Origin: Streptomyces sp. ITFR-16
GTDB taxonomy: Bacteria > Actinomycetota > Actinomycetes > Streptomycetales > Streptomycetaceae
Reading direction: 5' to 3'
Length of the DNA: 64,000 nt
Assembly (NCBI RefSeq): GCF_031844705.1
Contig: NZ_CP134609.1
Span: 3,038,001 to 3,102,000 of the forward strand
Numbering within the stretch: the stretch's first letter is position 1; each line of letters begins with the position of its first letter. Of the stretch, positions 27,376-41,442 are shown in pieces. Made by a program: the position numbers and the translations under genes. The notes beneath the pieces are model-generated. The model was not told the DNA's origin and did not search any database. It saw only the letters and a list, made by a program, of their open reading frames with translations.

Positions 27376-28434
27376 TCATGCCTCCGATGTCACCGCCGTC
27401 ACCCGCCACGGGGCCAGGCGCTGGACGTCGCGGGCTGTTTCGGTGACGCCCGCGAGGAAGCCCTCCGCTCGGGGGGATGCCGTTTCGCGGAGCCATTCCG
27501 GGGCGATGTCGCAGACCGCCACCTTGACCTCGGTGCCGACCAGGGCCAGCGGGAGGGTGTGGACCACCGTGGAGGGGAAGCTCAGGACCGTGCGGCCGAT
27601 GGGGCCGCGGCGGGCGATGAGTTCCAGGGGGAGGTCGGGGCGGACGATCTCCAGGCCGGTGGCGGCTTCCAGGGCGTGGAGCTTCTCGGTGGACTCGCGG
27701 CGGTGGGCGAAGTAGCGGGTGGCGCCGTGCGCGCGGGCCAGCGCCGCGACCGCCTCCAGGTACCGGGCCCGGTCGACCACGCCCGTCTCGACCAGGGAGG
27801 TGCCGACCATGTCGGCGCCCTTGGTGAGCAGGGGCGGGCCGAAGCGGGAGCGGGTCCAGGAGAAGGTGTTGGGGATGAGGGTGATGCCGGGCGGCGGGAT
27901 CACCGGCATGGCGGTGAACAGCTCGACCTCGCGAGCCGCCGTCGGGGTGAAGCGCCGGCGGGCGGTGGCCGTGACCGGGGCCAGGGCCAGGTCGCGGGGG
28001 CCGGAGCCGCCGCGCCGGTGCCAGCGCACCAGGCGCTCGCCCCGGGTCAGCTGGGCGACGAACTCCATGGTGGCGGTGCCGTCGTCGACCACGGTGAGCC
28101 GGCGGGGGCGCACCAGGGAGAGCAGCAGCTGCACGTAACGGGAGAACGGGTCCCCGATGACGATGTGGTCGGCGTTCCGTACGAGCTTGGTGAGGGCGCG
28201 CAGCGACTTCAGGGGGGTGCCCGAGTCGCCGCGCGCCTCCTGCCAGCGCACGGTCATGCCCTCGTCGCGGGCCAGCTCCGCCATCCGGCGCAGCTGACCG
28301 CGCGACATCGGGTCGACCGGAGGGAGGACGACGACGGTGACGTCCGAGAGGACACGGCCGCCGCCTCCCTCTGTGGTGGCCCACTCCAGGACGTTCAGGA
28401 GCTGGACCGGGCTCTCGACGAAGGCGAGGTTCAC
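27376..28434 (-). CDS. Nonulosonate cluster protein, possibly a GT-B sialyltransferase-like enzyme
   Basis: A 352-aa soluble protein, last gene of a four-gene minus-strand unit that contains the NeuB and NeuA homologues (11 bases after NeuB). The N terminus MNLAFVESPVQLLNVLEWA resembles the first strand of GT52 and polysialyltransferase families, whose members bind CMP-sugars; IVIGDPFSRYVQLLL and VVDDGTATMEF fit a Rossmann-like second part. I cannot assign a family with confidence. Context suggests transfer of the CMP-activated nonulosonic acid made by its neighbours. Confidence 0.7.
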   Translation of the reverse strand: MNLAFVESPVQLLNVLEWATTEGGGGRVLSDVTVVVLPPVDPMSRGQLRRMAELARDEGMTVRWQEARGDSGTPLKSLRALTKLVRNADHIVIGDPFSRYVQLLLSLVRPRRLTVVDDGTATMEFVAQLTRGERLVRWHRRGGSGPRDLALAPVTATARRRFTPTAAREVELFTAMPVIPPPGITLIPNTFSWTRSRFGPPLLTKGADMVGTSLVETGVVDRARYLEAVAALARAHGATRYFAHRRESTEKLHALEAATGLEIVRPDLPLELIARRGPIGRTVLSFPSTVVHTLPLALVGTEVKVAVCDIAPEWLRETASPRAEGFLAGVTETARDVQRLAPWRVTAVTSEA

Positions 28435-28445
28435 CGGTCGGCCCG

Positions 28446-29381
28446 TCAGACCGCGAGCGGCTCGGCGGCCGGGGCCGTCTCACCGCTCTCCGCGACGACG
28501 CCCGGGACCCGGCGGAGCTTCTTCATCGGGCCGAGCTCGGACTCGTACACCTTCTTGACGCCGTCGCCGAGGGAGGCCTCGATGGTGCGGATGTCGCGGA
28601 CCAGGCGGGTCAGGCCCTGCGGCTCGACGGACGCGGCCTGGTCGGAGCCCCACATGGCGCGGTCCAGGGTGATGTGGCGCTCGACGAACGCGGCGCCGAG
28701 GGCGACGGCGGCCAGCGTGGTCTGCAGGCCCGTCTCGTGGCCGCTGTAGCCGATCGGGACGTTGGGGTACTCCTGCTGGAGGGTGTTGATGACGCGGAGG
28801 TTCAGCTCCTCGGCCTTCGCCGGGTACGTCGACGTGGCGTGGCAGAGCAGGATGTTGTCCGAGCCGAGGACCTCGACCGCGTGGCGGATCTGGCGCGGGG
28901 TCGACATGCCGGTGGAGAGGATCACCGTGCGGCCGGTGGCGCGCAGCGAGCGCAGCAGCTCGTCGTCGGTGAGGGACGCGGAGGCGACCTTGTGGGCGGG
29001 GACGTCGAACTTCTCCAGGAAGGCGACGGCCTCGGTGTCCCACGGGGAGGCGAACCAGTCGATGCCGCGCTCGGCGCAGTGCTCGGAGATGGCGCGGTAC
29101 TCGGTCTCGCCGAACTCGACGCGGTGGCGGTAGTCGATGTACGTCATCCGGCCCCAGGGGGTGTCGCGCTCGATGTCCCACTGGTCGCGCGGGGTGCAGA
29201 TCTCCGGGGTGCGCTTCTGGAACTTGACGGCGTCGCAGCCGGCTTCGGCGGCCACGTCGATCAGTGCGAGGGCGTTGTCGAGGTCGCCGTTGTGGTTGAT
29301 GCCGATCTCACCCGTGACGTAGACGGGGTGGCCCGGGCCCGCGGTGCGGTTGCCGAGGGTGCGCAGACGGGAGGTGCTCAT
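28446..29381 (-). CDS. NeuB-family nonulosonate (Kdn-9-P/NeuAc) synthase
   Basis: A 311-aa synthase that condenses phosphoenolpyruvate with a mannose derivative to a nine-carbon 2-keto acid. The TIM-barrel signatures are GEIGINHNGDLDNALALI, AVKFQKRTPE, DWFASPWD, HKVASASLTDD, ILSTGMST, LLCHATSTYPA, GYSGHETG and ERHITLDRAMWGSDQAASVEP. The C-terminal antifreeze-like SAF domain of canonical NeuB (about 346 aa) is missing; only about 45 residues follow the barrel. The neighbouring transferase carries a fused phosphatase, which fits a 9-phosphate route to Kdn rather than direct NeuAc synthesis. Ten bases separate it from that gene. Confidence 0.9.
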   Translation of the reverse strand: MSTSRLRTLGNRTAGPGHPVYVTGEIGINHNGDLDNALALIDVAAEAGCDAVKFQKRTPEICTPRDQWDIERDTPWGRMTYIDYRHRVEFGETEYRAISEHCAERGIDWFASPWDTEAVAFLEKFDVPAHKVASASLTDDELLRSLRATGRTVILSTGMSTPRQIRHAVEVLGSDNILLCHATSTYPAKAEELNLRVINTLQQEYPNVPIGYSGHETGLQTTLAAVALGAAFVERHITLDRAMWGSDQAASVEPQGLTRLVRDIRTIEASLGDGVKKVYESELGPMKKLRRVPGVVAESGETAPAAEPLAV

Positions 29382-29391
29382 GGTGCGTTCC

Positions 29392-30627
29392 TTACTTGGG
29401 GAGGGGGGTGTTGACCGGGGAAGTGGTGAGGGTGGGGCCCAGCAGCCAGGCCGCGATCTCGCGGATGGCGCCGAAGCCGCCGGGGGTGTGCGTCACGGCG
29501 CGCGCGGCGGCGCGTACCGAGTCGTGCGCGCTCGCGACGGCGACGGGCCAGCCGGCGAGTGCGAAGCAGGGGAGGTCGTTGACGTCGTTGCCGACGTACA
29601 TGACGCGTTCGGGGGCGATGGACTGTTCGTCGCACCACTGCTTGAGCGCCAGGTCCTTGCGGTCGATGCCGTGCAGGACGGGGACGCGGAGCTTCTTGGC
29701 GCGGGCGGCGACGACCGGGTTCTGCTCCGTGGACAGGATCAGCAGCGGCAGTCCGGCCTTGCGCAGCGCGGCGATGCCGAGTCCGTCGCCCCGGTGCACG
29801 GCGACGGTCTCGTGTCCTTCGGCGTCGATGAGGACCCGGTCGTCGGTCTGGGTGCCGTCGAAGTCGAGGACGACCGCGTCGATGTCCGCGCGGGTGGGCA
29901 GCGGCGCCGGGTCGAGCAGCGGCGCGAGCGCGCGGGCGCGGGCCAGGTCGTGCGGGTCGTCGATCTCCAGGACCCGCGCGGGGTCGGTGCGCACCAGGGC
30001 GGTGTGGCCGAAGAAGCGGTGGCGGTGGGCGCGGAACCCGGCCGCGTCCATCGCGTAGGCGGCGCCCGTCTCCAGCAGGTCCTCGGGGCGGTCCTGGCGG
30101 CGGGGGCGGACCCGCTTGTCGTGGTTGACGCCGTAGTTGTGGTCCTCGACCGCGCTGCCGTCGCGCCACAGGAAGCCGTGGAAGGGGGCGACGGTGACGG
30201 CCGTGTCGGCGCCTTCCCGGGCGACCGCGGCGGCGACGCCGTCGATGTCCTCGCGGGCGACGAAGGGGCTGGTGCACTGGACGAGCAGGACGACGTCCAC
30301 GGTCCGTCCGTGCTCGGCCTCATAGGTGTCCAGGGCGTGCAGCACGGCGGCCTCGCTGGTCGCGGTGTCGCCGGCGATGGCCTCGGGGCGCTGCACGCAG
30401 TGCAGCCGGGCGCTCTCGCCGAGCGCCTCGCCGGCGGCCCGGGCGGTCTCCGCGACGGCCGGGGCGTCGGTCGTGACGACGACGTCCGTCACCTCGCTCG
30501 ACGCGAGGCAGGCGCGGACCGCGCGGACGACCAGCGGCACGCCGCCGACCTGGGCGAGGTTCTTGGCCGGTACGCCCTTGGATCCGCCGCGGGCGGGGAT
30601 CACGGCGAGCACGGTGGGCTGCGTCAT
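29392..30627 (-). CDS. CMP-nonulosonate cytidylyltransferase fused to HAD phosphatase
   Basis: A 411-aa bifunctional protein. Residues 1-230 are a NeuA/KdsB-type cytidylyltransferase (VIPARGGSKGVPAKN at 9-23, QRPEAIAGDTAT, QCTSPF, YAMDAAGF). Residues 245-411 are a KdsC-like HAD phosphatase with DFDGTQTDD at 255-263, LSTEQN and GNDVNDLP at 346-353. The pair would dephosphorylate a nonulosonate-9-phosphate and activate the product with CTP. The same fusion occurs in vertebrate CMAS and some bacteria. ATG at 30627. With the NeuB homologue it makes a complete route from a mannose phosphate to a CMP-nonulosonate. Confidence 0.92.
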   Translation of the reverse strand: MTQPTVLAVIPARGGSKGVPAKNLAQVGGVPLVVRAVRACLASSEVTDVVVTTDAPAVAETARAAGEALGESARLHCVQRPEAIAGDTATSEAAVLHALDTYEAEHGRTVDVVLLVQCTSPFVAREDIDGVAAAVAREGADTAVTVAPFHGFLWRDGSAVEDHNYGVNHDKRVRPRRQDRPEDLLETGAAYAMDAAGFRAHRHRFFGHTALVRTDPARVLEIDDPHDLARARALAPLLDPAPLPTRADIDAVVLDFDGTQTDDRVLIDAEGHETVAVHRGDGLGIAALRKAGLPLLILSTEQNPVVAARAKKLRVPVLHGIDRKDLALKQWCDEQSIAPERVMYVGNDVNDLPCFALAGWPVAVASAHDSVRAAARAVTHTPGGFGAIREIAAWLLGPTLTTSPVNTPLPK

Positions 30628-30743
30628 CGCTGCTCCAGTGGGTGTCGTGGAGGGGTCGTCGATCGGGGGGTGGAAGAAGGAGCGGGTCCGGGTGCCCGGA
30701 CCTGCGGCGCCGCCTCCCGTTTGACGCCCCCTCTTGGTGGTGT

Positions 30744-32129
30744 TCACAGCTCGCCCATCCGCCGGATGACCGGGGCGACGCGCTGGACGCCCTGGCGGTA
30801 CGCGCCCCGGGCCGCTTCGCGCACCGCCTCGCGCACCGCTCCCCTGACCCGGCCGGTCTCCCTGGGCGCGGCGGCGCCGGGCAGCGGGTGGCCGTCGGGG
30901 GCCAGGTGGTGGCGGGCGAGGATGCCCGGGAGGTAGCCGGGGGCGGTGGCGGGTGTGTAGTACGGCGCGAGGTCCGGCAGCCGGTCCTCGGCCAGCAGCG
31001 CGGTGACCCGGGCGCGGGCGGTGTCGTAGGCCGTGTCGTAGCTGCCGTCGGCGGCGACGCCCTGGCCGGCCAGCCACACGGCGTCCGGCTCGGGGTGCGC
31101 CCCGCCGTCGAGGTGGTCCCAGGAGGTGAGCAGGCCGGAGCCGACGAAGTGGTGGTTGCCGAGTGCTTCGCGCACCCCGAGGTCGGTGAGGACGGCGGTG
31201 GGGATGCGCCGGTGCAGGGACTCCAGGGCGGCGGTCGAGGAGACGGTGACCAGCAGGTCGGTGCGGTCCAGGACCTCACCCATGTGGCCGTACACCAGGC
31301 GGAAGTTGGGCGGGAGGCCGCCGGGCAGCTTCTCGGCGAGCCGCTGGTACGGAAGTTCCTCGATGTGGGTCGTGTGCTCGCCGGGCCGGGACCGCAGCTT
31401 GAGGACGACCTCGCGCTCCGGGTGCAGCCGGGCGTGCTCGACGAGCCGGCGCAGCAGGTACGTGCGGTCGGCGCGGGAGGCCGGTACGGAGGGCTGCGCG
31501 GCGAACACCACGGTGTCGCGGCCCTGTTCGGGACGGTACGGGGCGCCGCCGAGGAACGGCAGGGCGGCCTCCGTGACGGCCGACGCGTCGGCGCCCACCC
31601 CCTCGTACACCGCGCGGAAGCGCTCCGCGTCGTGGCGGGAGTTGGCGAGGACGACGTCGGCGCCGTGCCGCAGCAGCAGTCCGTCGGCGAGCTTCTCGTA
31701 GACGACACCGACATAGCCGGTGACGACGACGGGGCGCTTCGGCAGCCGGAGTGCGGCCAGGCCGTGCAGCATCGCCTGGACGCCGCCGCCGACGAGGGCG
31801 AGGACCACCAGGTCGTAGCCCTCGTCGCGCACGGTGTGCAGGAACTCGACGGCGGTGACCTCGCGCACCCCGGTGTCGATGCCGACGTCGCCGACCTCGG
31901 CGAGCTGGCGGGCCGTCGGAGTGGCCCGGCCCCGCAGCAGCAGTCCGCTGATCCGTGCGCGGGGCGCGCCCGCACGGCCGTCTCCCGAGGTCAGCCGGCG
32001 CGCGGTGAGCGCACCCCACTTCCATCGGGTGTCGGAGTCGGCGAGCACGGCCACCCGGAGCGCCGGGGACGGCGTGTCCGTGGATTCCAGCGCTGCTGGA
32101 GAAGCCGAATTGCTGTTGCTGAGGGGCAC
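30744..32129 (-). CDS. DUF6716-type putative glycosyltransferase
   Basis: About 461 aa, first gene of the nonulosonate unit. Looks like a GT-B enzyme: LRVAVLADSDTRWKWGALTARRL at the N terminus, LVVLALVGGGVQAMLHGL, VVTGYVGVVYEK, VLANSRHDAERFRAVYEGVG, then a second domain VVFAAQPSVPASRADR, VVLKLRSRPGEHTTH, VTVSSTAALESLHRRIPTAVLTDLG. Similar proteins are, as I recall, named DUF6716 putative glycosyltransferases. GTG at 32129 fits better than the upstream in-frame ATG at 32168. The divergent region of 211 bases to the GT2 gene probably carries promoters for both sides. Confidence 0.78.
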   Translation of the reverse strand: MPLSNSNSASPAALESTDTPSPALRVAVLADSDTRWKWGALTARRLTSGDGRAGAPRARISGLLLRGRATPTARQLAEVGDVGIDTGVREVTAVEFLHTVRDEGYDLVVLALVGGGVQAMLHGLAALRLPKRPVVVTGYVGVVYEKLADGLLLRHGADVVLANSRHDAERFRAVYEGVGADASAVTEAALPFLGGAPYRPEQGRDTVVFAAQPSVPASRADRTYLLRRLVEHARLHPEREVVLKLRSRPGEHTTHIEELPYQRLAEKLPGGLPPNFRLVYGHMGEVLDRTDLLVTVSSTAALESLHRRIPTAVLTDLGVREALGNHHFVGSGLLTSWDHLDGGAHPEPDAVWLAGQGVAADGSYDTAYDTARARVTALLAEDRLPDLAPYYTPATAPGYLPGILARHHLAPDGHPLPGAAAPRETGRVRGAVREAVREAARGAYRQGVQRVAPVIRRMGEL

Positions 32130-32340
32130 GTCCAAGACGTTAGGAAGGCCGGGGGGTGGGCAGCCCAACGTGAAAGCAACAAAGGGTTAACAGCCCGCCG
32201 ACGATTGCCGAACCGGCCGCCCGGCTCGTTGAAAAGCGGAGAAGAATACCGTCGTGGGCCTGTCGGTTCACTGTTCCGACGGATGCCGTTCACCTACCGG
32301 CCGCACGGCCGACAGGGCGAATGCCCGGCCCGGAACTAGC

Positions 32341-33330
32341 GTGAAGCGGGTGGTTAAGCTCTCCGTCATCGTGCCGTTCTACAACGTGCAGACATACGCG
32401 CCCGACACCCTCAGAAGTCTGCGGGCCAATGCCCGCGAGGACTTCGAGTTCATCCTCGTCGACGACTGTTCGACCGACGGGACGGCGGACATACTGCGCC
32501 GCGCCCAGGACGAGATTCCGGGGGTGGTCGTCCGCAGACACGAGCGGAACGGCGGACTGGCCACCGCCCGGAACACCGGTCTGGACGCGGCCCGCGGCGA
32601 ATACCTCGCCTTCCTGGACGGCGACGACTGGCTGGCCCCCGGTTTCTACGCCGAGCTGCTGGCCAGGACGGAGGCCCTGGGCTGCGACTTCGTCCGTACC
32701 GACCATGTGCAGGCCGACGGCAGGAACCGTACGGTCCACCGCGTCCCGCACGGCCGCAGGGGCGAGGTCATGGCCCCCCGGGACGCGATCCTGCCCGCCG
32801 CACGCACCACGTCGGTCGACTACGCGTACGCCTGGGCGGGCCTCTACCACCGCCGGCTCCTGGACCGGGGGCTGCTGCACTTCACCGACGGTCTGCGCAC
32901 GGCGGAGGACCGGCCGTGGATCTGGCGGCTGCACCGCGAGGCGGATTCCTTCGCGGTGCTGGGACTTCTCGGAATCTTCTACCGGCGGGGCGTCGCCTCG
33001 TCACTGACCCAGATCGGCGACATGCGCCAGCTCGATTTCATTCGCTCGTTCGACCAGGTCGTACGGGAAACGGCGGCGGACCGTGACGCACGGGAACTGC
33101 TGCCGAAAGCCGTGCGCAACTATTGCGCGATCATTTCCCATCACATGAGTTCGGTGGAAAGGTTCGAACCTTCGGTGGCCCGTGCACTGAAATCGATGAG
33201 CGCGGACGCGCTCGCGCGAATGCCGCAGGACGTGCTGGCCGAGGCCCTCGACTCGATGGACGTCAAGCGCGCGACCCTGCTGCGCCGGCTGCGCCGCCGG
33301 TCCACCGCGAAGGAGGTGGCGGCCGCGTGA
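32341..33330 (+). CDS. Family 2 glycosyltransferase
   Basis: A 329-aa cytoplasmic GT-A enzyme: KLSVIVPFYNVQTYAPDTLRSL, FEFILVDDCSTDGT, NGGLATARNTGLDAARGEYLAFLDGDDW with the D-x-D. No membrane helix. The C-terminal part is helical with basic residues (RLRRRS), as in teichoic-acid-type polymerases and priming enzymes. GTG at 32341, with GTG at 32350 as an alternative. Its stop overlaps the start of the polysialyltransferase-like gene, so both act in the same step series of the wall polymer. Confidence 0.88.
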   Translation: MKRVVKLSVIVPFYNVQTYAPDTLRSLRANAREDFEFILVDDCSTDGTADILRRAQDEIPGVVVRRHERNGGLATARNTGLDAARGEYLAFLDGDDWLAPGFYAELLARTEALGCDFVRTDHVQADGRNRTVHRVPHGRRGEVMAPRDAILPAARTTSVDYAYAWAGLYHRRLLDRGLLHFTDGLRTAEDRPWIWRLHREADSFAVLGLLGIFYRRGVASSLTQIGDMRQLDFIRSFDQVVRETAADRDARELLPKAVRNYCAIISHHMSSVERFEPSVARALKSMSADALARMPQDVLAEALDSMDVKRATLLRRLRRRSTAKEVAAA

Positions 33331-34706
33331 GCAGCAGCCGGAGCCGTACGACGCAGATCTTCCTCGCCTCCACGCTCTACGGCACGGCGACGCTCGCCGC
33401 CGCCCTGGACGCGGGCCTCTTCCCGGACGCCGGGCGCAGGATCCTGCTCGTCGCGAACAACGCGTCGGTGCCGGAGACGACCCCGGCGGTCGACGCGATG
33501 CCCGGGTTCGACGCGCTGCGCACCCGGTTCGACGACGTCGTGTCGTGGAACGCGACGATCGCGCCCCACCACCCGAGCGCCTGGGCCCCGCGCCCCGACG
33601 ACATCCCCCTGTGGGAGCGTCATCTGCGGCTCGCCTGGGGGCTCGGCGACGACGCCGTCGAGCTGGCCGTGGAGTCGATCCAGGTCAACCCGGCCATGGC
33701 CCTCTGCCAGATCTTCACCGGCGTGCCCCTCGATGTGTACGCGGACGGGCTGATGAGCTACGGCCCGACCAGGAACAAGATCGATCCGCTGGTCGGCACC
33801 CGGGTGGGGCGGCTGCTCCACCTGGATCTGGTGCCGGGGCTGCGGCCGTTGCTGCTCACCGAGTTCGGGGTGGCCCCGGAGACCGTGCCGACGGACGCCT
33901 TCCTGAAGGTGCTCGGCGAGCTGGGCGACGCGGCCGAGGTCGTGGCCGGGGTGCCGTCGGTGGAGTCGCCCGCGCTGCTGCTGGGCCAGTACCTCTCCGC
34001 GCTCGGGCTGATCAGCGCGGCGGAGGAGGAGGAGCTGCATCTGCGGATGATGCGCGGTGCGGTGCGCCGGGGCCACACCCGGCTGGTGTTCAAGCCGCAT
34101 CCGACGGCCCCGGCGCAGTGGTCGCGGGCGATGGAGGCGGAGGCGGAGCGGCTCGGCGCCGAACTGACCTTGCTGGACGCGGGGGTGCTGACCGCCCCGG
34201 TCCTCGCCGAGGTGCTGTACCGGCGGATGCGGCCGGCGCTGGTCGTCGGCTGCTTCTCGACCGCGCTGCTCACGGCGTCGGCGTTCTACGGGCTGCCGGT
34301 GGCGCGGGTCGGTACGGAGAAGCTGCTGGAGCGGCTGACCCCGTTCGAGAACAGCAACCGGGTGCCGGTGACGCTGGTGGACGCGCTGGTGCCGGACCTG
34401 GAGGGCGCGGGCGCGGACCGCGCCCCGGAGGCGGCGGCGGGGGCGCCCGCCGAGCTGAACGACCTGGTGACGGCGGTCGGTTTCGCCATGCAGCCGAAGA
34501 TCTATCCGGAGCTGCGGCCGGTCGCGGAGCGGTATCTCACGGCCCGGCTCACGGCCGCGACCTGGCGTTACTTCAAGCGCAGGCGGCTGACGTCGCTCGG
34601 TCTGCCGGGCGGGGTGCCCGAGCAGTTCGCTTTCCTGCCGCGCAACGCGGCGGTGCGGCGGGTGGCCCGGCGGGCGAAGGCGCTGCGGCGGATGGCGCTG
34701 CGGTAG
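33327..34706 (+). CDS. Alpha-2,8-polysialyltransferase-family protein
   Basis: About 459 aa, resembling the polysialyltransferase family (GT-B type). Features: QIFLASTLYGTATLAAALDAGLF at the N terminus, ILLVANNASVPE, DGLMSYGPTRNKID, RLVFKPHPTAPAQWS (the conserved K-x-H-P motif for CMP-sugar binding) and VVGCFSTALLTASAFYGLPVARVG (the conserved S-T motif). It would add nonulosonic-acid units to a growing chain. GTG at 33327 overlaps the preceding stop (GTGA). Ends at a convergent terminator. Confidence 0.85.
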   Translation: MSSSRSRTTQIFLASTLYGTATLAAALDAGLFPDAGRRILLVANNASVPETTPAVDAMPGFDALRTRFDDVVSWNATIAPHHPSAWAPRPDDIPLWERHLRLAWGLGDDAVELAVESIQVNPAMALCQIFTGVPLDVYADGLMSYGPTRNKIDPLVGTRVGRLLHLDLVPGLRPLLLTEFGVAPETVPTDAFLKVLGELGDAAEVVAGVPSVESPALLLGQYLSALGLISAAEEEELHLRMMRGAVRRGHTRLVFKPHPTAPAQWSRAMEAEAERLGAELTLLDAGVLTAPVLAEVLYRRMRPALVVGCFSTALLTASAFYGLPVARVGTEKLLERLTPFENSNRVPVTLVDALVPDLEGAGADRAPEAAAGAPAELNDLVTAVGFAMQPKIYPELRPVAERYLTARLTAATWRYFKRRRLTSLGLPGGVPEQFAFLPRNAAVRRVARRAKALRRMALR

Positions 34707-34785: not shown

Positions 34786-37116
34786 TCAGACCCGGATGCC
34801 GGGCCCGATCAGCTTCAGGTCCGCCGCGTTCGCCTCGGTGACCTTCCACAGTTCCTGCTGGCGGCCGTGCACGTCGGCGACCGCCGCCTGGTGGTCGTCG
34901 AGCAGCCCGGCCGCCCGTTCCACCAGCCGCTCCCCGAGGTGCCGGTCGTGGACGGAGATGCCCCAGTCGGGCCGGTCGATGTCGGACAGGAAGTACGCCA
35001 TCTTGGGGTGCGAGATCAGGCTGATGACCGGGGTGCCGCAGCCGAACGGGATCATGCCCGCGTGCCCGCGCATCCCGATGACCAGCTTGGTGCGGGCGTA
35101 GGTGTCCCGGATCTCGTCGTTGCCGAAGTCGTACATCGGGATCACCGGGAGCGAGATGCCGTGCTCGCGGCGCAGGTCGAAGGCGATCCGCTCGTCGTCC
35201 AGCGAGTGGGCCACGCACTTGACCTCGGCGCGCTTGCCGAGCCCCCGGACGGCGGTGGCCGTCTCGGCGAGGAAGTGTGCGTAGTCGTGGCCGAAGCGGA
35301 GCCCCGCCCGGTCGTACGCGGCGTTGAGCAGGACGGTGTCCTCGCGCTCGGCCGGGTCGGTCCAGCCCTCCACCAGCTGCCGGGTGACGGTCGTCGGGCA
35401 GGGCTGGAAGCGCACCTTGTCGTGCAGCGACGCCGGCAGCAGCTCGCGGACCTTCTGGATCGACCCGTGGTTGCGCAGGCCGAAGAACGAGGAGCGCTCC
35501 ACCAGTCTGCGCAGCGAGGAGAGGAACCGTTCGCGGCCGTGTCCGTACGCCTGGCCGTCGAAGGCGTTGAAGCCCACGGCGTAGACCATGACGGGCACGT
35601 CGATCCGGTCCAGCAGCCGGTCGGGGACGTTCCACTGCCAGCCGCTGTTGCCGTTCGGCGCGGTGTCCGGGATGAACAGGCCGCCGCCGCCGATGACGAG
35701 GCCCCGGCGGGCGTTGACCCGTTCGAGGGCGGCCTCGTCGAACAGCCGGTGGGCGTGGACGGAGTGCCAGCGGTCCGGTCCGGTGTCGCGGCCGAAGGCC
35801 AGCCGGACGCTCTCCGGGAGCAGCTTGTCGCCGGCGTTGCCCTGCCGTTCCATGTAGAACGCGACATGGGCGAGCTGCTGGTCGGCCGGGCCGTCGGCGG
35901 GGGGCCGGACGTCCTTGGTCCGCAGGTGCATCAGCCGGTTCGCCCGGTGGGTGGGGTCGACGCCGAGCCCCTGGAGGGCGTAGTCCGATGCCGCCTCGTC
36001 GTCGCCGTGGATCCAGGCGATCTGGGCCAGGCGGGAGAAGGCGGTGGCGGCCCGGTTGGGGGCGGCGGCGGCCAGCAGGAGCTGGGTGCGGGCCTCCTCG
36101 TAGCGCGAGACGCTCATCAGCGCGTGGCCGAGGACCTCGTGCGGCCAGGCCTCGTCGACGGGGATGCGGACCGAGCCGAGGAGGTCGGCCGCCTCCTGGT
36201 ACTCACCGGCGCCGATGTGGGCGGCGGCGACCCGGCGGGCGCTCTCGGGGTCGCCGGTGCGCCGGACGTGCGGGGTGCCGTAGTGCACCAGCAGGTCGTG
36301 GTGCTTGGTGCCGGAAGCCGCCAGGTACCGGGCGTGGAACTCGGCGTCGGTCAGCTCGAAGTCGCGCCAGCGCTCCTCGGCCTTGCCGTACCCGGCCTCG
36401 CCGCCCTGCCAGGGCTTGTGGCGCCCGGTGAAGTGCAGGATCGCCGTGGTGTCGGGCACCGCGAGGTCGCCGGAGAGCCGGCGCTTGACGTAGTTGTAGC
36501 GGGCGTCGAGCTGCACGAAGTCGCCGTCGAGCACGGCGTTCAGGATGCCCTGGTCGTGCTTGTCCAGCTCGTACGCGCCGGAGCGGCCGGTCTCGTCGAT
36601 CCGGGCGCAGAAGGCGTCGCTCAGATACTCGCGCTGGATGACCAGCAGACCGCTGTTGAGCTTGTGCTGCCCGTAGAAGAACTGCGGGACGGCGGCCAGG
36701 CCGTCGCGCAGCCTGAGCAGCTCGCCCAGGTCGCCGAGGACGACCATGTCGGTGTCCAGGGTGATCACGGTGTCGTAGTCGCGGACCCGGAAGACGTCGA
36801 GGATGAAGTAGGCCTTGCGCACCAGGTAGTTGTCCTGGTCGCCCTTGGCGTACGTGTCGTAGTGCGCGGCGTCGACCCGGCGGAAGTCGACGCGGGGGTG
36901 CAGGGCCCTGATCCGTTCGACGGAGGCCGGGCGCAGCCCGTCGTGCAGGACGATGAAGTCCTCGCAGACGCCCGGGTTGGACAGCGCGAGGCTGCGGAGC
37001 AGGGTGAGGAATCCGGGCAGGTAGTTCTCGTCCACGAAGCTGGCGAAGGCGACGCGGCGCTTGCCGGTGAGGGTGTTGGCGGGGGCGGGGGGCGCGGCGG
37101 CAGGGGTCGTCGTCAT
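34786..37116 (-). CDS. GT8 glycosyltransferase / TPR / pyruvyltransferase fusion
   Basis: A 776-aa three-part protein. Residues 15-285 are a GT8-like domain (RRVAFASFVDENYLPGFLTLLRSL, D-x-D in TLDTDMVVLGD at 119-129, HKLNSGLLVIQ, ILHFTGRHKPW). Residues about 300-410 form helical TPR-like repeats. Residues about 415-776 match polysaccharide pyruvyltransferases (FYMERQGNAGDKLLPESVRLAFG, LVIGGGGLFIPD, FFGLRNHGSIQKVRELL, KLVIGMRGHAGMIPFGCGTPVISL). It would add a hexose and a pyruvate ketal or related group to the polymer. ATG at 37116 overlaps the stop of the sialyltransferase-like gene (ATGA). Confidence 0.88.
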   Translation of the reverse strand: MTTTPAAAPPAPANTLTGKRRVAFASFVDENYLPGFLTLLRSLALSNPGVCEDFIVLHDGLRPASVERIRALHPRVDFRRVDAAHYDTYAKGDQDNYLVRKAYFILDVFRVRDYDTVITLDTDMVVLGDLGELLRLRDGLAAVPQFFYGQHKLNSGLLVIQREYLSDAFCARIDETGRSGAYELDKHDQGILNAVLDGDFVQLDARYNYVKRRLSGDLAVPDTTAILHFTGRHKPWQGGEAGYGKAEERWRDFELTDAEFHARYLAASGTKHHDLLVHYGTPHVRRTGDPESARRVAAAHIGAGEYQEAADLLGSVRIPVDEAWPHEVLGHALMSVSRYEEARTQLLLAAAAPNRAATAFSRLAQIAWIHGDDEAASDYALQGLGVDPTHRANRLMHLRTKDVRPPADGPADQQLAHVAFYMERQGNAGDKLLPESVRLAFGRDTGPDRWHSVHAHRLFDEAALERVNARRGLVIGGGGLFIPDTAPNGNSGWQWNVPDRLLDRIDVPVMVYAVGFNAFDGQAYGHGRERFLSSLRRLVERSSFFGLRNHGSIQKVRELLPASLHDKVRFQPCPTTVTRQLVEGWTDPAEREDTVLLNAAYDRAGLRFGHDYAHFLAETATAVRGLGKRAEVKCVAHSLDDERIAFDLRREHGISLPVIPMYDFGNDEIRDTYARTKLVIGMRGHAGMIPFGCGTPVISLISHPKMAYFLSDIDRPDWGISVHDRHLGERLVERAAGLLDDHQAAVADVHGRQQELWKVTEANAADLKLIGPGIRV

Positions 37117-38660
37117 CGCAGTGAGATCCTCGTATCGGTGACGCTCTGGGCGCGTTCCATGACCCACGCCTTCTCGCTGGTGTACTCGTGCACGGAGGTG
37201 ATGGGCATCTTCATCGCGGCGGGCAGCCGGTAGGCGCCGCTCTCGTAGAAGTCGAAGCCGATCAGGTCGAGCCGGGTGCTGACGTCCAGGTGGTCCAGCA
37301 GCCAGAGCATGTTGAAGCCGCTGGTGGGGATGGACGGCCAGACGTCCGTGCCGACCTTGCCGATGTCGCGCAGCGGCCAGCGCAGCGACTCGTCGCCCAG
37401 ATACCGCTGGGCGCCCGGCACCAGCCGGTTGCGCAGGGAGTACTTCCAGTCGCCGGAGATCCCGCCGAAGACCAGCCGGGTGTCGACCTTCTTGTCCCAG
37501 TTGAAGCCGTGCTTGTGGATGGTGGCGTGGATGTCGGTCCGGCTGCCGGTGGCGGCCGGGTCGATCCGGTACGAGTTGAAGCGGACGACCAGGTCGTACG
37601 CGTCGATCTCGGCGCCCAGTGAACTGCTGCCGACGCGCTGGGAGTTGGCGATCAGACAGATGGACTTCCCCGCGATGCGGTTGCGGAACTCCCCGAGCGT
37701 GGTCCACTCGACGCCGCCGAAGACCGGGTCGGCGACCGGGCCGCGCATCCGGGCCCGGCGCTGGCCCGCGTAGAGCTCGACGAGTTCGGTGAGCAGGGCG
37801 GGGTCGCCGCCCGTGGCGGCGGCGCGGCCGCCGCTGCCCGGTGCGCCGGCGGCCTCCAGGGCGAGGCCGACGTACTGGCCCAGCGCCTCCTGGATCTCCG
37901 GCACCGGGGCGCCGGTGCGGTCCTGGGCGATCAGGGCGCCGATCAGCCGGGAGCGGGCCCGGTTCCAGTCGCCGTGTCCGGCCAGGGCCAGGCCCTCGGC
38001 CCAGGTGTCGGTGACGGAGGCACCGGCGAAGGCGGCCGCCTCGGGGCAGCCCTGCTCCAGCTTCCGCAGCAGCTCGGCCTGGCGCTCGGCGCCGGCCCGC
38101 AGCCCGGCGGTCTTCGCCGCGATGCCGAAGCCGTCCTCGTCGGTGAGGTCGAGGTAGCGCTCGTACGCCTCGACTGCGGCGCTCTCCGCGCCCATCGCCT
38201 CCAGCACGCGGGCCCGCAGCCGCCAGGCCGCCCGGGAGCGCCTGCGCTGGGTCAGCACGGTGTCGGTGACGAGGACGGCGAGCTTCAGTTCGTCCTCGTA
38301 CCCGCAGTCCAGGGCCTTGTTGCCGACCGCGAGCAGCGGGTCGAGCAGCTTGTCGCCGAGGACCAGGGCGGAGCCGGGCCCGCTCCGGGAGGCGCGCCGC
38401 AGCAGCGGGACCGGGGCGGTGTCCGGGGAGGTCTGCTCCATCGAGGCGTGGGCGGCCAGCAGATTCCGCAGGGCCTCCGCCAGCGCCGTGCGCCGCCGGT
38501 CCAGCCCTGCGACCAGCTTCCCGCTGTGCGCGGCGCAGGCGCGCAGGCAGGTCTCCAGTTCCGTCGGGCGGACGGTCGCGGGGGAGGGCGTGCCGTCGCC
38601 GGACGGTATCGGCTCCTCCGCCTCACTCTGTCGTGGCCAACGGGTGCGGGCTTTCGTCAT
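37113..38660 (-). CDS. GT29-like sialyltransferase with full set of sialylmotifs
   Basis: A 515-aa protein. The first 310 residues are helical and TPR-like (WRLRARVLEAMGAESAAVEAYERYL). Residues 315-505 read as a family 29 sialyltransferase: motif L at about 332-380 (KSICLIANSQRVGSS, EIDAYDLVVRFNSY, TGSRTDIHATIH), motif S at about 439-470 (PSIPTSGFNMLWLLDHL, LIGFDF) and motif VS as H491-x4-E496 in HEYTSE. GT29 is best known from animals and plants; bacterial members are rare. It lies beside the CMP-nonulosonate pathway, so its donor is probably CMP-Kdn or similar. First gene of a two-gene unit, ATGA overlap with the next. No signal peptide or membrane helix, unlike the Golgi enzymes. Confidence 0.82.
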   Translation of the reverse strand: MTKARTRWPRQSEAEEPIPSGDGTPSPATVRPTELETCLRACAAHSGKLVAGLDRRRTALAEALRNLLAAHASMEQTSPDTAPVPLLRRASRSGPGSALVLGDKLLDPLLAVGNKALDCGYEDELKLAVLVTDTVLTQRRRSRAAWRLRARVLEAMGAESAAVEAYERYLDLTDEDGFGIAAKTAGLRAGAERQAELLRKLEQGCPEAAAFAGASVTDTWAEGLALAGHGDWNRARSRLIGALIAQDRTGAPVPEIQEALGQYVGLALEAAGAPGSGGRAAATGGDPALLTELVELYAGQRRARMRGPVADPVFGGVEWTTLGEFRNRIAGKSICLIANSQRVGSSSLGAEIDAYDLVVRFNSYRIDPAATGSRTDIHATIHKHGFNWDKKVDTRLVFGGISGDWKYSLRNRLVPGAQRYLGDESLRWPLRDIGKVGTDVWPSIPTSGFNMLWLLDHLDVSTRLDLIGFDFYESGAYRLPAAMKMPITSVHEYTSEKAWVMERAQSVTDTRISLR

Positions 38661-38928
38661 GGCGCTCCAAGCGTCTGGTGCCCGTGGGGGGAGGGGGCGT
38701 GGAGAGGGGTACGGATGTTCGTCACCCGTTTGCGGTTGCGTCGCACGCTAGGAAACCTGAACGGCCGCAGGATGAACTCGCCCTGTCGGCGAGGAAAACT
38801 GCGTTTCGGCCCGCCGTCCGCGGGGGTTGGCCGGTCCCGGAAGGCCGGATGAACGCCTGCGGACCATCGGGTGAACCGCCTTTTCGGCCGCGGGTTTTCA
38901 CGATGTTCGATGACATATTCGACGCATC

Positions 38929-41442
38929 ATGAGGACTCCGTCGCTTCTCCGATCGCCGCGCGGCCGGGGTGCCGCCTGGGCCGCCCTGCTCGCCGTCGTG
39001 ACCGTCTGCGCGGGCGACGCGGTGGCCCGCAGCTACCCCTTCGGCCCGCGCACCCGCAGCGTGAACGACCTGGGCAATCAGTTCGTCCCGTTCCACGCCC
39101 ACCTGTGGGACCTGCTGCACGGGAAGGCGGACGGCGGGCTGCTGCTCAACTGGCAGTCCGGCTACGGAAGCAGCTTCCTGCCGGATCTGGGCACGTATCT
39201 CACCAGCCCGTTCGCGCTGCTCGTCGGAGTGTTCCCGAGGGACCGCGTCGACCTGGCGGTCTACGTGGTCACGCTGGTGAAGACGGGCGCGGCGGCGGCC
39301 TCCATGACCTGGCTGCTGACCGCGTTGCGCAGGGGCCGGGGCCGGGAGTGGGCGGCGGCGGTGCTCGGCGCCTCGTACGCGCTGTGCGGCTGGTCGGTGA
39401 TCGAGGCCGTGTACAACCCGATGTGGCTGGACGGGCTGATCGCCCTCCCGCTGCTGTGCCTGGCCGGTGAGTGGGCGCGGACCGGCCGGCGGCCGGTCCT
39501 GGGCACGCTTCTGGTGACGCTCGCCTGGGTGTCGAACTTCTACACCGCGTACATGGCCACGCTCGGCGCGGCGCTGGTGCTGGGGGTACGGCTGCTGCTG
39601 GAGGACGGCACCTCGCGCGAGCGGGTACGGGGGCTGGCACGGGCCGTCCGCACGGTCCTGCTCGGCATCGGTCTGGCCGCGCCGGTCCTGCTGCCGGTCT
39701 TCCTCGGGACGCGGCACGCCTACCCGGGCTGGACCCGGGAGTTCGCCCCGGCCGCCTGGCCGGACGCCGCCGCCCGCCTGCTGCCGGCCACCTACGGCTT
39801 CTTCAGTCCGGCGCTCTTCCTCGGCACCGGATCGCTGCTCCTGGCCTGCGCGCTCGCCTTCCACCGGGGGGTGCCGCGCGCCGAGCGGTGGGTGTGGCCG
39901 GGGCTGGTGGCACTCGTCGCGCTGTCGTTGCAGTGGGGGCCCACACATCTGCTGTGGCACGCCTTCGCGACGCCGAACGGCAGCCCGTTCCGCCAGACGT
40001 TCGTCCTCTCCGGCCTCGTGGTGATCGCCGCCTGGACCGCCGTCGCCCGGGGCTGGCCGGACCGGCGGGCGCTGCTGGGCGGGGGCGGGGTGCTGGTGCT
40101 GATCGCGGCGGGCGCCGCGCCCAGCGACCTGGTCACCCGGTGGACGTATCCGCTGTTCGCCGCAGGCCTTGTGGCGGCGCTCTGCGCGCTCGCGCTGGTA
40201 CGCGGCGGGAGGTTCGCGGTCCTCGCGGTGGCGCTGCTGGTGGGGGCGCAGGCCGGACAGGCGGCCGCGACCACCGCGTACGCCGACCGGCAGCGGCTGA
40301 AGCAGCTCGACGACTACGCGCCCTGGGGCGAACGCCAGCGCCTGGAGGCCGACGCGGTCGCCCGCGCCGACGGCTGGCCGCGCTACCGCACCGATCCGGG
40401 CCGGGAACAGAGCACCGCCAACGACCCGTTGACCGTCGGCGGCCAGGGCGGGGCGTACTACAGCAGCCATACGCCCGACGTGACGACCCGCACCTTCCTC
40501 GCGCTCGGCGGCGGCTGGACCTCGCGCGGGCGGGCGCTGCAGAGCCTGGACAACCCGGTGACCGACGCGGTGTTCTCGGTCGGCGCCCGGGTCCATGTGC
40601 CGCGCGATCCGCACCAGGTCTGGAACCGCCCCGACGACCGGCCGGTGACCGTGACCCGGCAGGACGTACCCCCGCTGGTGACGGTACGGGCCGCGGGCTC
40701 CGGCTCCCCGGGCTGGGTGCGCTCGCCGTTCCGCAACCAGGAGAAGCTGCTGGGCGCGCGGGTGTACACGCTGCCGGCGACCGCCCTGCGGTCGGCCGAG
40801 GGCGCGCCCGCCACGGACCGGAACGCCCGCGCGTACGCGGTGGAGCCCGGCGCGTACACGCTGAGCGCGAGCTGTCCTGCGGGCAGCCGGGTCTTCCTGT
40901 GGGCGCCGGATCTGTTCGGCACCGCACTGCTGGGGACGACGGGTGATCCGCAGGACGTCCGGGGCGATCTGCCGGCCCGGCGGGCCGGTATCCAGCCGCT
41001 CGGCGCGGGCGCGGGCCGGATCACGGTGTCGCTGCGGGTGGAGCGCGCCGGGACCCTGCCGCACGACGCGGTCGGCTGTCTGGACCCGGGGCGGCTGGCC
41101 TCGGCGGTGGCGGGGCTGAAGCGGACGGGGGCGGTGCGGGTGACGGTGTCCGGCAGCGGTGTGCACGCCGAACTCCCGCCGCACGCCCGGGGCATCGCGG
41201 TCCTGGCCGCGCCCCGGATCGCGGGCTGGAGCTGCGACGGCCGCCCGGCCGGCTCGTACCTGGGCCTGGTCGCGGCACCACTGGCCGGGGACCGGACCTC
41301 GGTGGACTGCGCGTTCCGGCCCCCGGGCCTGCGGGCGGGCAGCGCGGTGGGGGCGGCCGCACTGGCGGGCCTGCTGGCCGTGGCATTCACCCCGGCGGTC
41401 CTGAACCGGGTACGGGGGCGGCGGGGACGGGTGCGGGTGTGA
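38929..41442 (+). CDS. YfhO-family membrane glycosyltransferase-like protein
   Basis: An 837-aa integral membrane protein with about a dozen helices in the first 450 residues (AAWAALLAVVTVCAGDAV, TLLVTLAWVSNFYTAYMATLGAALVLGV, TVLLGIGLAAPVLLPVFLG) and one near the C terminus. The N-terminal signature RSVNDLGNQFVPFHAHLWDLLHGK, with the YGSSFLPDLGTYLTSPF loop, is that of YfhO/GT-C proteins, which in Firmicutes glycosylate lipoteichoic acid from a lipid-linked sugar. The 400-residue C-terminal half is mostly extracytoplasmic. An extracellular decoration step on the wall polymer is inferred. ATG at 38929, divergent from the GT29-like gene across 268 bases. Confidence 0.85.
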   Translation: MRTPSLLRSPRGRGAAWAALLAVVTVCAGDAVARSYPFGPRTRSVNDLGNQFVPFHAHLWDLLHGKADGGLLLNWQSGYGSSFLPDLGTYLTSPFALLVGVFPRDRVDLAVYVVTLVKTGAAAASMTWLLTALRRGRGREWAAAVLGASYALCGWSVIEAVYNPMWLDGLIALPLLCLAGEWARTGRRPVLGTLLVTLAWVSNFYTAYMATLGAALVLGVRLLLEDGTSRERVRGLARAVRTVLLGIGLAAPVLLPVFLGTRHAYPGWTREFAPAAWPDAAARLLPATYGFFSPALFLGTGSLLLACALAFHRGVPRAERWVWPGLVALVALSLQWGPTHLLWHAFATPNGSPFRQTFVLSGLVVIAAWTAVARGWPDRRALLGGGGVLVLIAAGAAPSDLVTRWTYPLFAAGLVAALCALALVRGGRFAVLAVALLVGAQAGQAAATTAYADRQRLKQLDDYAPWGERQRLEADAVARADGWPRYRTDPGREQSTANDPLTVGGQGGAYYSSHTPDVTTRTFLALGGGWTSRGRALQSLDNPVTDAVFSVGARVHVPRDPHQVWNRPDDRPVTVTRQDVPPLVTVRAAGSGSPGWVRSPFRNQEKLLGARVYTLPATALRSAEGAPATDRNARAYAVEPGAYTLSASCPAGSRVFLWAPDLFGTALLGTTGDPQDVRGDLPARRAGIQPLGAGAGRITVSLRVERAGTLPHDAVGCLDPGRLASAVAGLKRTGAVRVTVSGSGVHAELPPHARGIAVLAAPRIAGWSCDGRPAGSYLGLVAAPLAGDRTSVDCAFRPPGLRAGSAVGAAALAGLLAVAFTPAVLNRVRGRRGRVRV

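Follow-up and report, generated by a model that had tools for sequence, protein, structure and literature searches.

A GT29-like protein with a TPR-like N-terminal domain and no motif III, encoded in a putative wall-polymer gene cluster of Streptomyces

Does Streptomyces encode a protein of the glycosyltransferase family GT29, best known for the sialylation of animal glycans, and, if so, what could such a protein do in a soil actinobacterium? The question is raised by a gene in a 64,000-nucleotide stretch of the Streptomyces sp. ITFR-16 genome (NZ_CP134609.1, positions 3,038,001 to 3,102,000; hereafter, the window). The gene occupies positions 37113–38660 on the minus strand and encodes a protein of 515 aa, comprised of a TPR-like part and a GT29-fold domain; its boundaries and the order and placement of sialylmotifs L, S, and VS are exactly those of the preliminary description. 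That this is a genuine gene follows from the open reading frame itself, codon statistics, conservation, and dN/dS. In particular, the GC content at the three codon positions is 70/53/95% with a Streptomyces-like codon bias, dN/dS relative to close relatives is ∼0.24, and no fewer than 80 named Streptomyces loci retain the gene. Ordinary Streptomyces codon use and genus-wide conservation rule out contamination as its source. Hydropathy analysis reveals no membrane segment in the 515-aa protein, which is cytosolic. The gene is joined to the next gene downstream by an ATGA overlap, while on the other side it shares an intergenic region with a divergent gene encoding a YfhO-family membrane protein (38929–41442).

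The window protein itself matches PF00777 with E 0.0013, and its C-terminal domain alone with E 3e-4, the score of the latter, 20.6, being under the Pfam cut-off of 23. In a diverse alignment, PF00777 was matched independently by all fourteen full-type members, that is, those with the full set of motifs discussed below (14/14, best E 3e-8), and the member at locus L020 scores over its PF00777 cut-off. A family profile searched against PDB yielded, at E < 1, only GT29 chains, all of them mammalian (ST3Gal1 with E 2.5e-4, ST6Gal1, and ST8SiaIII). A chance motif match is rejected by these two results. For the window protein, searches in other collections produced no PHROGs family match and only weak TPR/chaperone-type matches in NCBIfam.

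In the full-length AF2 model, the TPR part is good and the GT29 part is poor, and the VIA list for this model was filled by TPR proteins; therefore, the domain was modelled separately, from 58 homologues, with pLDDT 58, that is, at modest to low confidence. For this model, the top 30 Foldseek matches are all GT29 (ST6Gal1 with E 9e-5 and prob 1.00), and the first unrelated match appears at E 0.29. Similarly, the top 14 VIA matches are all GT29, with Z from 9.2 to 6.7, followed by an unrelated fold at 6.6. As the latter margin is small, the case for GT29 rests on the sequence, Foldseek, and VIA results jointly. CstII of family GT42 has a related fold but matches much more weakly, with Z 4.6, under every GT29 entry, and there is no GT42 Pfam match for the window protein; GT42 membership appears unlikely. 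We conclude that the C-terminal half of the protein has a predicted GT29 fold; both the structure comparison and the HMM search proposed in the preliminary description thus gave GT29.

The sialylmotifs are found in the expected order. Motif L (aa 332–384, positions 37509–37667, minus strand) was located by PF00777 and PDB profile alignments and contains N339-S340 and R360-F-N362, as well as H382 and H384, invariant in 78 sequences. Motif S (aa 445–469, 37254–37328, minus strand) is strongly conserved; its PTSGF...LDLIGF aligns with PSTG...VDLYGF of ST3Gal1 (the PSTG..LYGF pattern of pST3Gal1 in the HMMER alignment), a match that is weak taken singly. Motif VS, H491-x4-E496 (37173–37190, minus strand), carries the putative catalytic base. 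N339, S340, N362, H491, and E496 are invariant in the 78 sequences and are also kept in relatives from other actinobacterial families down to 48% domain identity. In ST3Gal1, N147, S148, and N170 contact the donor, while H299 of motif III serves as the acid and H316 as the base (PMC6884586); the motif alignment and motif order make N339, S340, N362, and H491 the counterparts of N147, S148, N170, and H316.

The exception is motif III (H-Y-Y-E/D). The window protein has no histidine between motif S and H491, and the aligned full-type relatives have no conserved histidine column between motifs S and VS; therefore, motif III is missing, which, like the ATGA overlap, goes unmentioned in the preliminary description. 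The cysteine pair forming the L–S disulphide is absent from the family as well. Candidates for the role of the motif-III acid are the invariant R478, H382, and H384. Plant GT29 sequences lacking both motifs III and VS have also been reported (PMC5811610). Separately, in another actinobacterium we observed a GT29 domain that has an HYYD motif III (L039:6032-8485, PF00777 E 1.7e-11). It is part of a fusion with a GT4 domain, and its neighbours are genes encoding NeuB and a CMP synthetase.

The N-terminal part of the window protein (aa ∼32–303, positions 37752–38567, minus strand) is a TPR-like helical repeat domain, as had been proposed. It is supported by AF2 helices (pLDDT ∼80–94 across aa ∼121–260), TPR-type structural neighbours, and weak Pfam TPR matches.

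The gene is a part of a larger cluster. The translationally coupled downstream gene (34786–37116, minus strand) encodes a fusion of GT8, TPR, and polysaccharide pyruvyltransferase domains (PF01501, PF04230) and adjoins the GT29-like gene in all 80 named Streptomyces loci (80/80). Further on are a polysialyltransferase-like (polyST) gene (33324–34706, plus strand; PF07388, E 1.8e-25), a GT2 glycosyltransferase gene identified by a Pfam-type domain match (32344–33330, plus strand), and a conserved gene assigned by a domain match to DUF6716, a putative glycosyltransferase (30744–32168, minus strand). They are followed by a gene for a CMP-nonulosonate synthetase fused to a HAD phosphatase of the KDN-9-phosphatase/KdsC-like type (29392–30687, minus strand; PF02348), whose product also matches NF058599, TIGR01670, and TIGR03584 under their cut-offs, and by a gene encoding a NeuB-family nonulosonate synthase (28446–29381, minus strand; PF03102, E 1e-81). 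Another conserved gene of the cluster (27376–28434, minus strand), present in 38 of the 80 named loci, encodes a 352-aa protein with no match in Pfam or NCBIfam, possibly an undescribed transferase. Hence, the placement of the GT29-like gene beside NeuB and CMP-nonulosonate synthetase genes, noted in the preliminary description, was borne out, and the cluster combines NeuB, CMP-nonulosonate synthetase, and polyST-like genes, the gene set that marks teichulosonic acid clusters.

The upstream regions contain candidate regulatory sites. In an alignment of these regions, orthologues share a promoter-like element, GTTCAYC...TTTCCTAGnnTG, ahead of the GT29-like start (38745–38777, minus strand). A pattern search of the window yielded two predicted PHO-box-like repeat pairs, compared to 0.07 expected: one intergenic, upstream of the GT29-like gene (38848–38876, minus strand), and one between the DUF6716 and GT2 genes (32266–32294, plus strand). 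In S. coelicolor, the genes of the teichulosonic acid cluster SCO4873-SCO4882 are controlled by PhoP (PMC13011467), and Gal and Kdn are constituents of the polymer (PMC11481543). With its NeuB, CMP synthetase, and polyST genes, the window cluster recalls SCO4873-SCO4882 at the level of gene kinds, and with its candidate PHO-box-like sites it may be regulated by PhoP. A Kdn-containing wall polymer is a feature of the S. coelicolor system and is the predicted product of the window cluster.

Taken with the active-site residues, this setting leads us to favour, with somewhat better than even confidence, the reading that the window protein is an active CMP-Kdn (nonulosonate) transferase contributing to a wall polymer of the teichulosonic acid type. 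The neighbouring NeuB and cytidylyltransferase-phosphatase would make a CMP-nonulosonate, most likely CMP-Kdn, as the fusion of a KDN-9-phosphatase-like domain to the cytidylyltransferase suggests the Kdn-9-phosphate route and hence Kdn. The cytosolic GT29-fold protein would then move the nonulosonic acid from the CMP-sugar onto a growing wall-glycopolymer intermediate. CMP would be held by N339, S340, and N362, as it is by N147, S148, and N170 in ST3Gal1; the catalytic base would be H491, with the missing motif-III acid perhaps replaced by R478, H382, or H384. Docking onto the GT8-TPR-pyruvyltransferase partner is probably the function of the TPR-like domain, in which case the hexose of the partner and the nonulosonate would be added within one complex.

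We then considered the distribution of the family. It is carried by 53 of 199 Streptomyces genomes and, together with the partner gene, by several other actinobacterial families. A PF00777 search in 198 Actinomycetota genomes at E 0.001 gave no matches, but the controls were equally silent, and hence this result is uninformative. The A2 profile search in 396 Actinomycetota genomes gave a single match beyond Streptomyces, and the remaining non-Streptomyces members were found using this match as a query. NeuB is present in all eight non-Streptomyces genomes with the family (8/8), compared to 51 of 149 overall (p = 1.3e-4, kinship ignored). Within Streptomyces, NeuB is found in 184 of 199 genomes, and co-occurrence inside the genus therefore says little. 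Two Streptomyces genomes, G517 and G538, retain a closely related full-motif gene and have no PF03102 or PF02348 (CTP_transf_3) protein; both assemblies are drafts of 480–550 contigs. The full-motif GT29-like gene and its partner form the pairs L037:9208-13094 and L038:8596-12428 in the two genomes without NeuB or CTP_transf_3, with suf genes near the former.

About 40% of the family-bearing Streptomyces genomes hold a degenerate form of the gene, located in the same slot of the same cluster. It lacks H491, N362, and H382/H384, with the R-F-N triad, the I-H-x-H motif, and a stretch of ∼15–20 residues including the VS histidine being lost, while E496 and W499 are kept. In the tree, a single, well-supported split (99/96) separates the degenerate forms from the full-type ones. 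Their reading frames are open, and dN/dS is 0.25–0.41, compared to 0.15 to 0.29 in close full-type pairs; the degenerate clade is under purifying selection. Moreover, a second GT2-polyST pair is present in all nine degenerate loci with a visible cluster (9/9) and in none of the 71 full-type loci (0/71). This association is confined to one clade and so amounts to a single event; still, it is what one would expect had a polyST-type enzyme taken over the GT29 step.

A selected form without an active site makes one think of a non-catalytic scaffold, in which the TPR-like and GT29-fold parts would serve mainly to bring in or control the GT8-pyruvyltransferase or the acceptor, catalysis being secondary or lost even in the full-motif members. 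Such a role would agree with the absence of motif III throughout the family and with the persistence of the gene in G517 and G538, although a pure scaffold would have no need of the CMP-contact and base residues that are invariant in the 78 full-clade sequences and in other actinobacterial families. Besides, other GT29 enzymes keep these residues, suggesting that their loss in the degenerate clade is derived. We regard the scaffold as unlikely for the full-motif proteins.

The same two genomes bear on the choice of the donor. A full-motif gene without NeuB or any CTP_transf_3 protein could belong to an active GT29-fold transferase using another cytidine-activated donor, e.g. CMP-Kdo or a sugar or polyol linked to CDP, the more so as donor-site conservation is clear for the CMP half only. 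However, NeuB accompanies the window copy and every non-Streptomyces genome with the family, and G517 and G538 are only drafts, which makes such a donor improbable. More doubtful still is modification of a protein acceptor by a nonulosonosyltransferase, as in OGT/SPINDLY or flagellin-modifying Maf: the TPR-GT architecture recalls it, and SPY and OGT are the leading Foldseek matches of the full-length model via its TPR part, but the gene resides in a wall-glycopolymer cluster with polyST, is coupled to the GT8-pyruvyltransferase in every named locus, and has no candidate acceptor protein among the genes of the cluster.

Returning to the nonulosonate transferase that we favour, the main points against it are the missing histidine of motif III, required in ST3Gal1, and the retention of the gene by G517 and G538 without NeuB and CMP-sugar synthetase. 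The preliminary description held that the location of the gene supports real activity. The adjacency of NeuB and CMP synthetase speaks for this, but the claim was too strong, given the missing motif-III acid, the degenerate sister clade, and the two genomes without NeuB or CMP-ulosonate synthetase.

The view that GT29 is unusual for bacteria likewise needs to be narrowed. Bacterial GT29 sequences, mostly from alpha-proteobacteria, were reported in 2018 (PMC5811610), and so the novelty lies in the phylum and the architecture rather than in GT29 in bacteria as such; we found no paper describing an actinobacterial GT29. The window protein shares with the GT29 enzymes of CAZy (ST6Gal1, ST3Gal1, ST8SiaIII) the predicted fold, motifs L, S, and VS, the CMP-contact Asn/Ser, and the base His. 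Unlike them, it has no motif III HYYE, L–S disulphide pair, or membrane anchor, is cytosolic, and has an N-terminal TPR-like domain and a shorter GT29-like domain. Like the family considered here, the bacterial proteins of PMC5811610 have motifs L, S, and VS and lack the conserved disulphide; by their description, they differ in having motif III, whereas the window family lacks it, is actinobacterial, fused to TPR, and coupled to the GT8-pyruvyltransferase. The new features are the fusion to a TPR-like domain, the absence of motif III, the GT8-pyruvyltransferase coupling in a wall-polymer setting, and the pseudo-enzyme clade.

A bolder reading, which we consider less likely than not, is that a GT29 lineage without motif III builds a part of the wall polymer, and that its sister clade is a retained pseudo-sialyltransferase whose job has been taken by a second polyST-like enzyme, forming a natural series from an active GT29 to a scaffold in one operon slot. 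The degenerate clade offers a direct way to test both activity loss and replacement. If the favoured reading is true, the role of GT29 extends to the building of wall polymers in Gram-positive bacteria, where the enzyme is soluble, fused to TPR, and free of both disulphides and the motif-III acid. Such an enzyme would be convenient for work on the GT29 mechanism and for the production of Kdn-glycans. The GT29 tree would also become broader on its bacterial side, which touches upon the proposal that eukaryotic sialyltransferases originated in bacteria.
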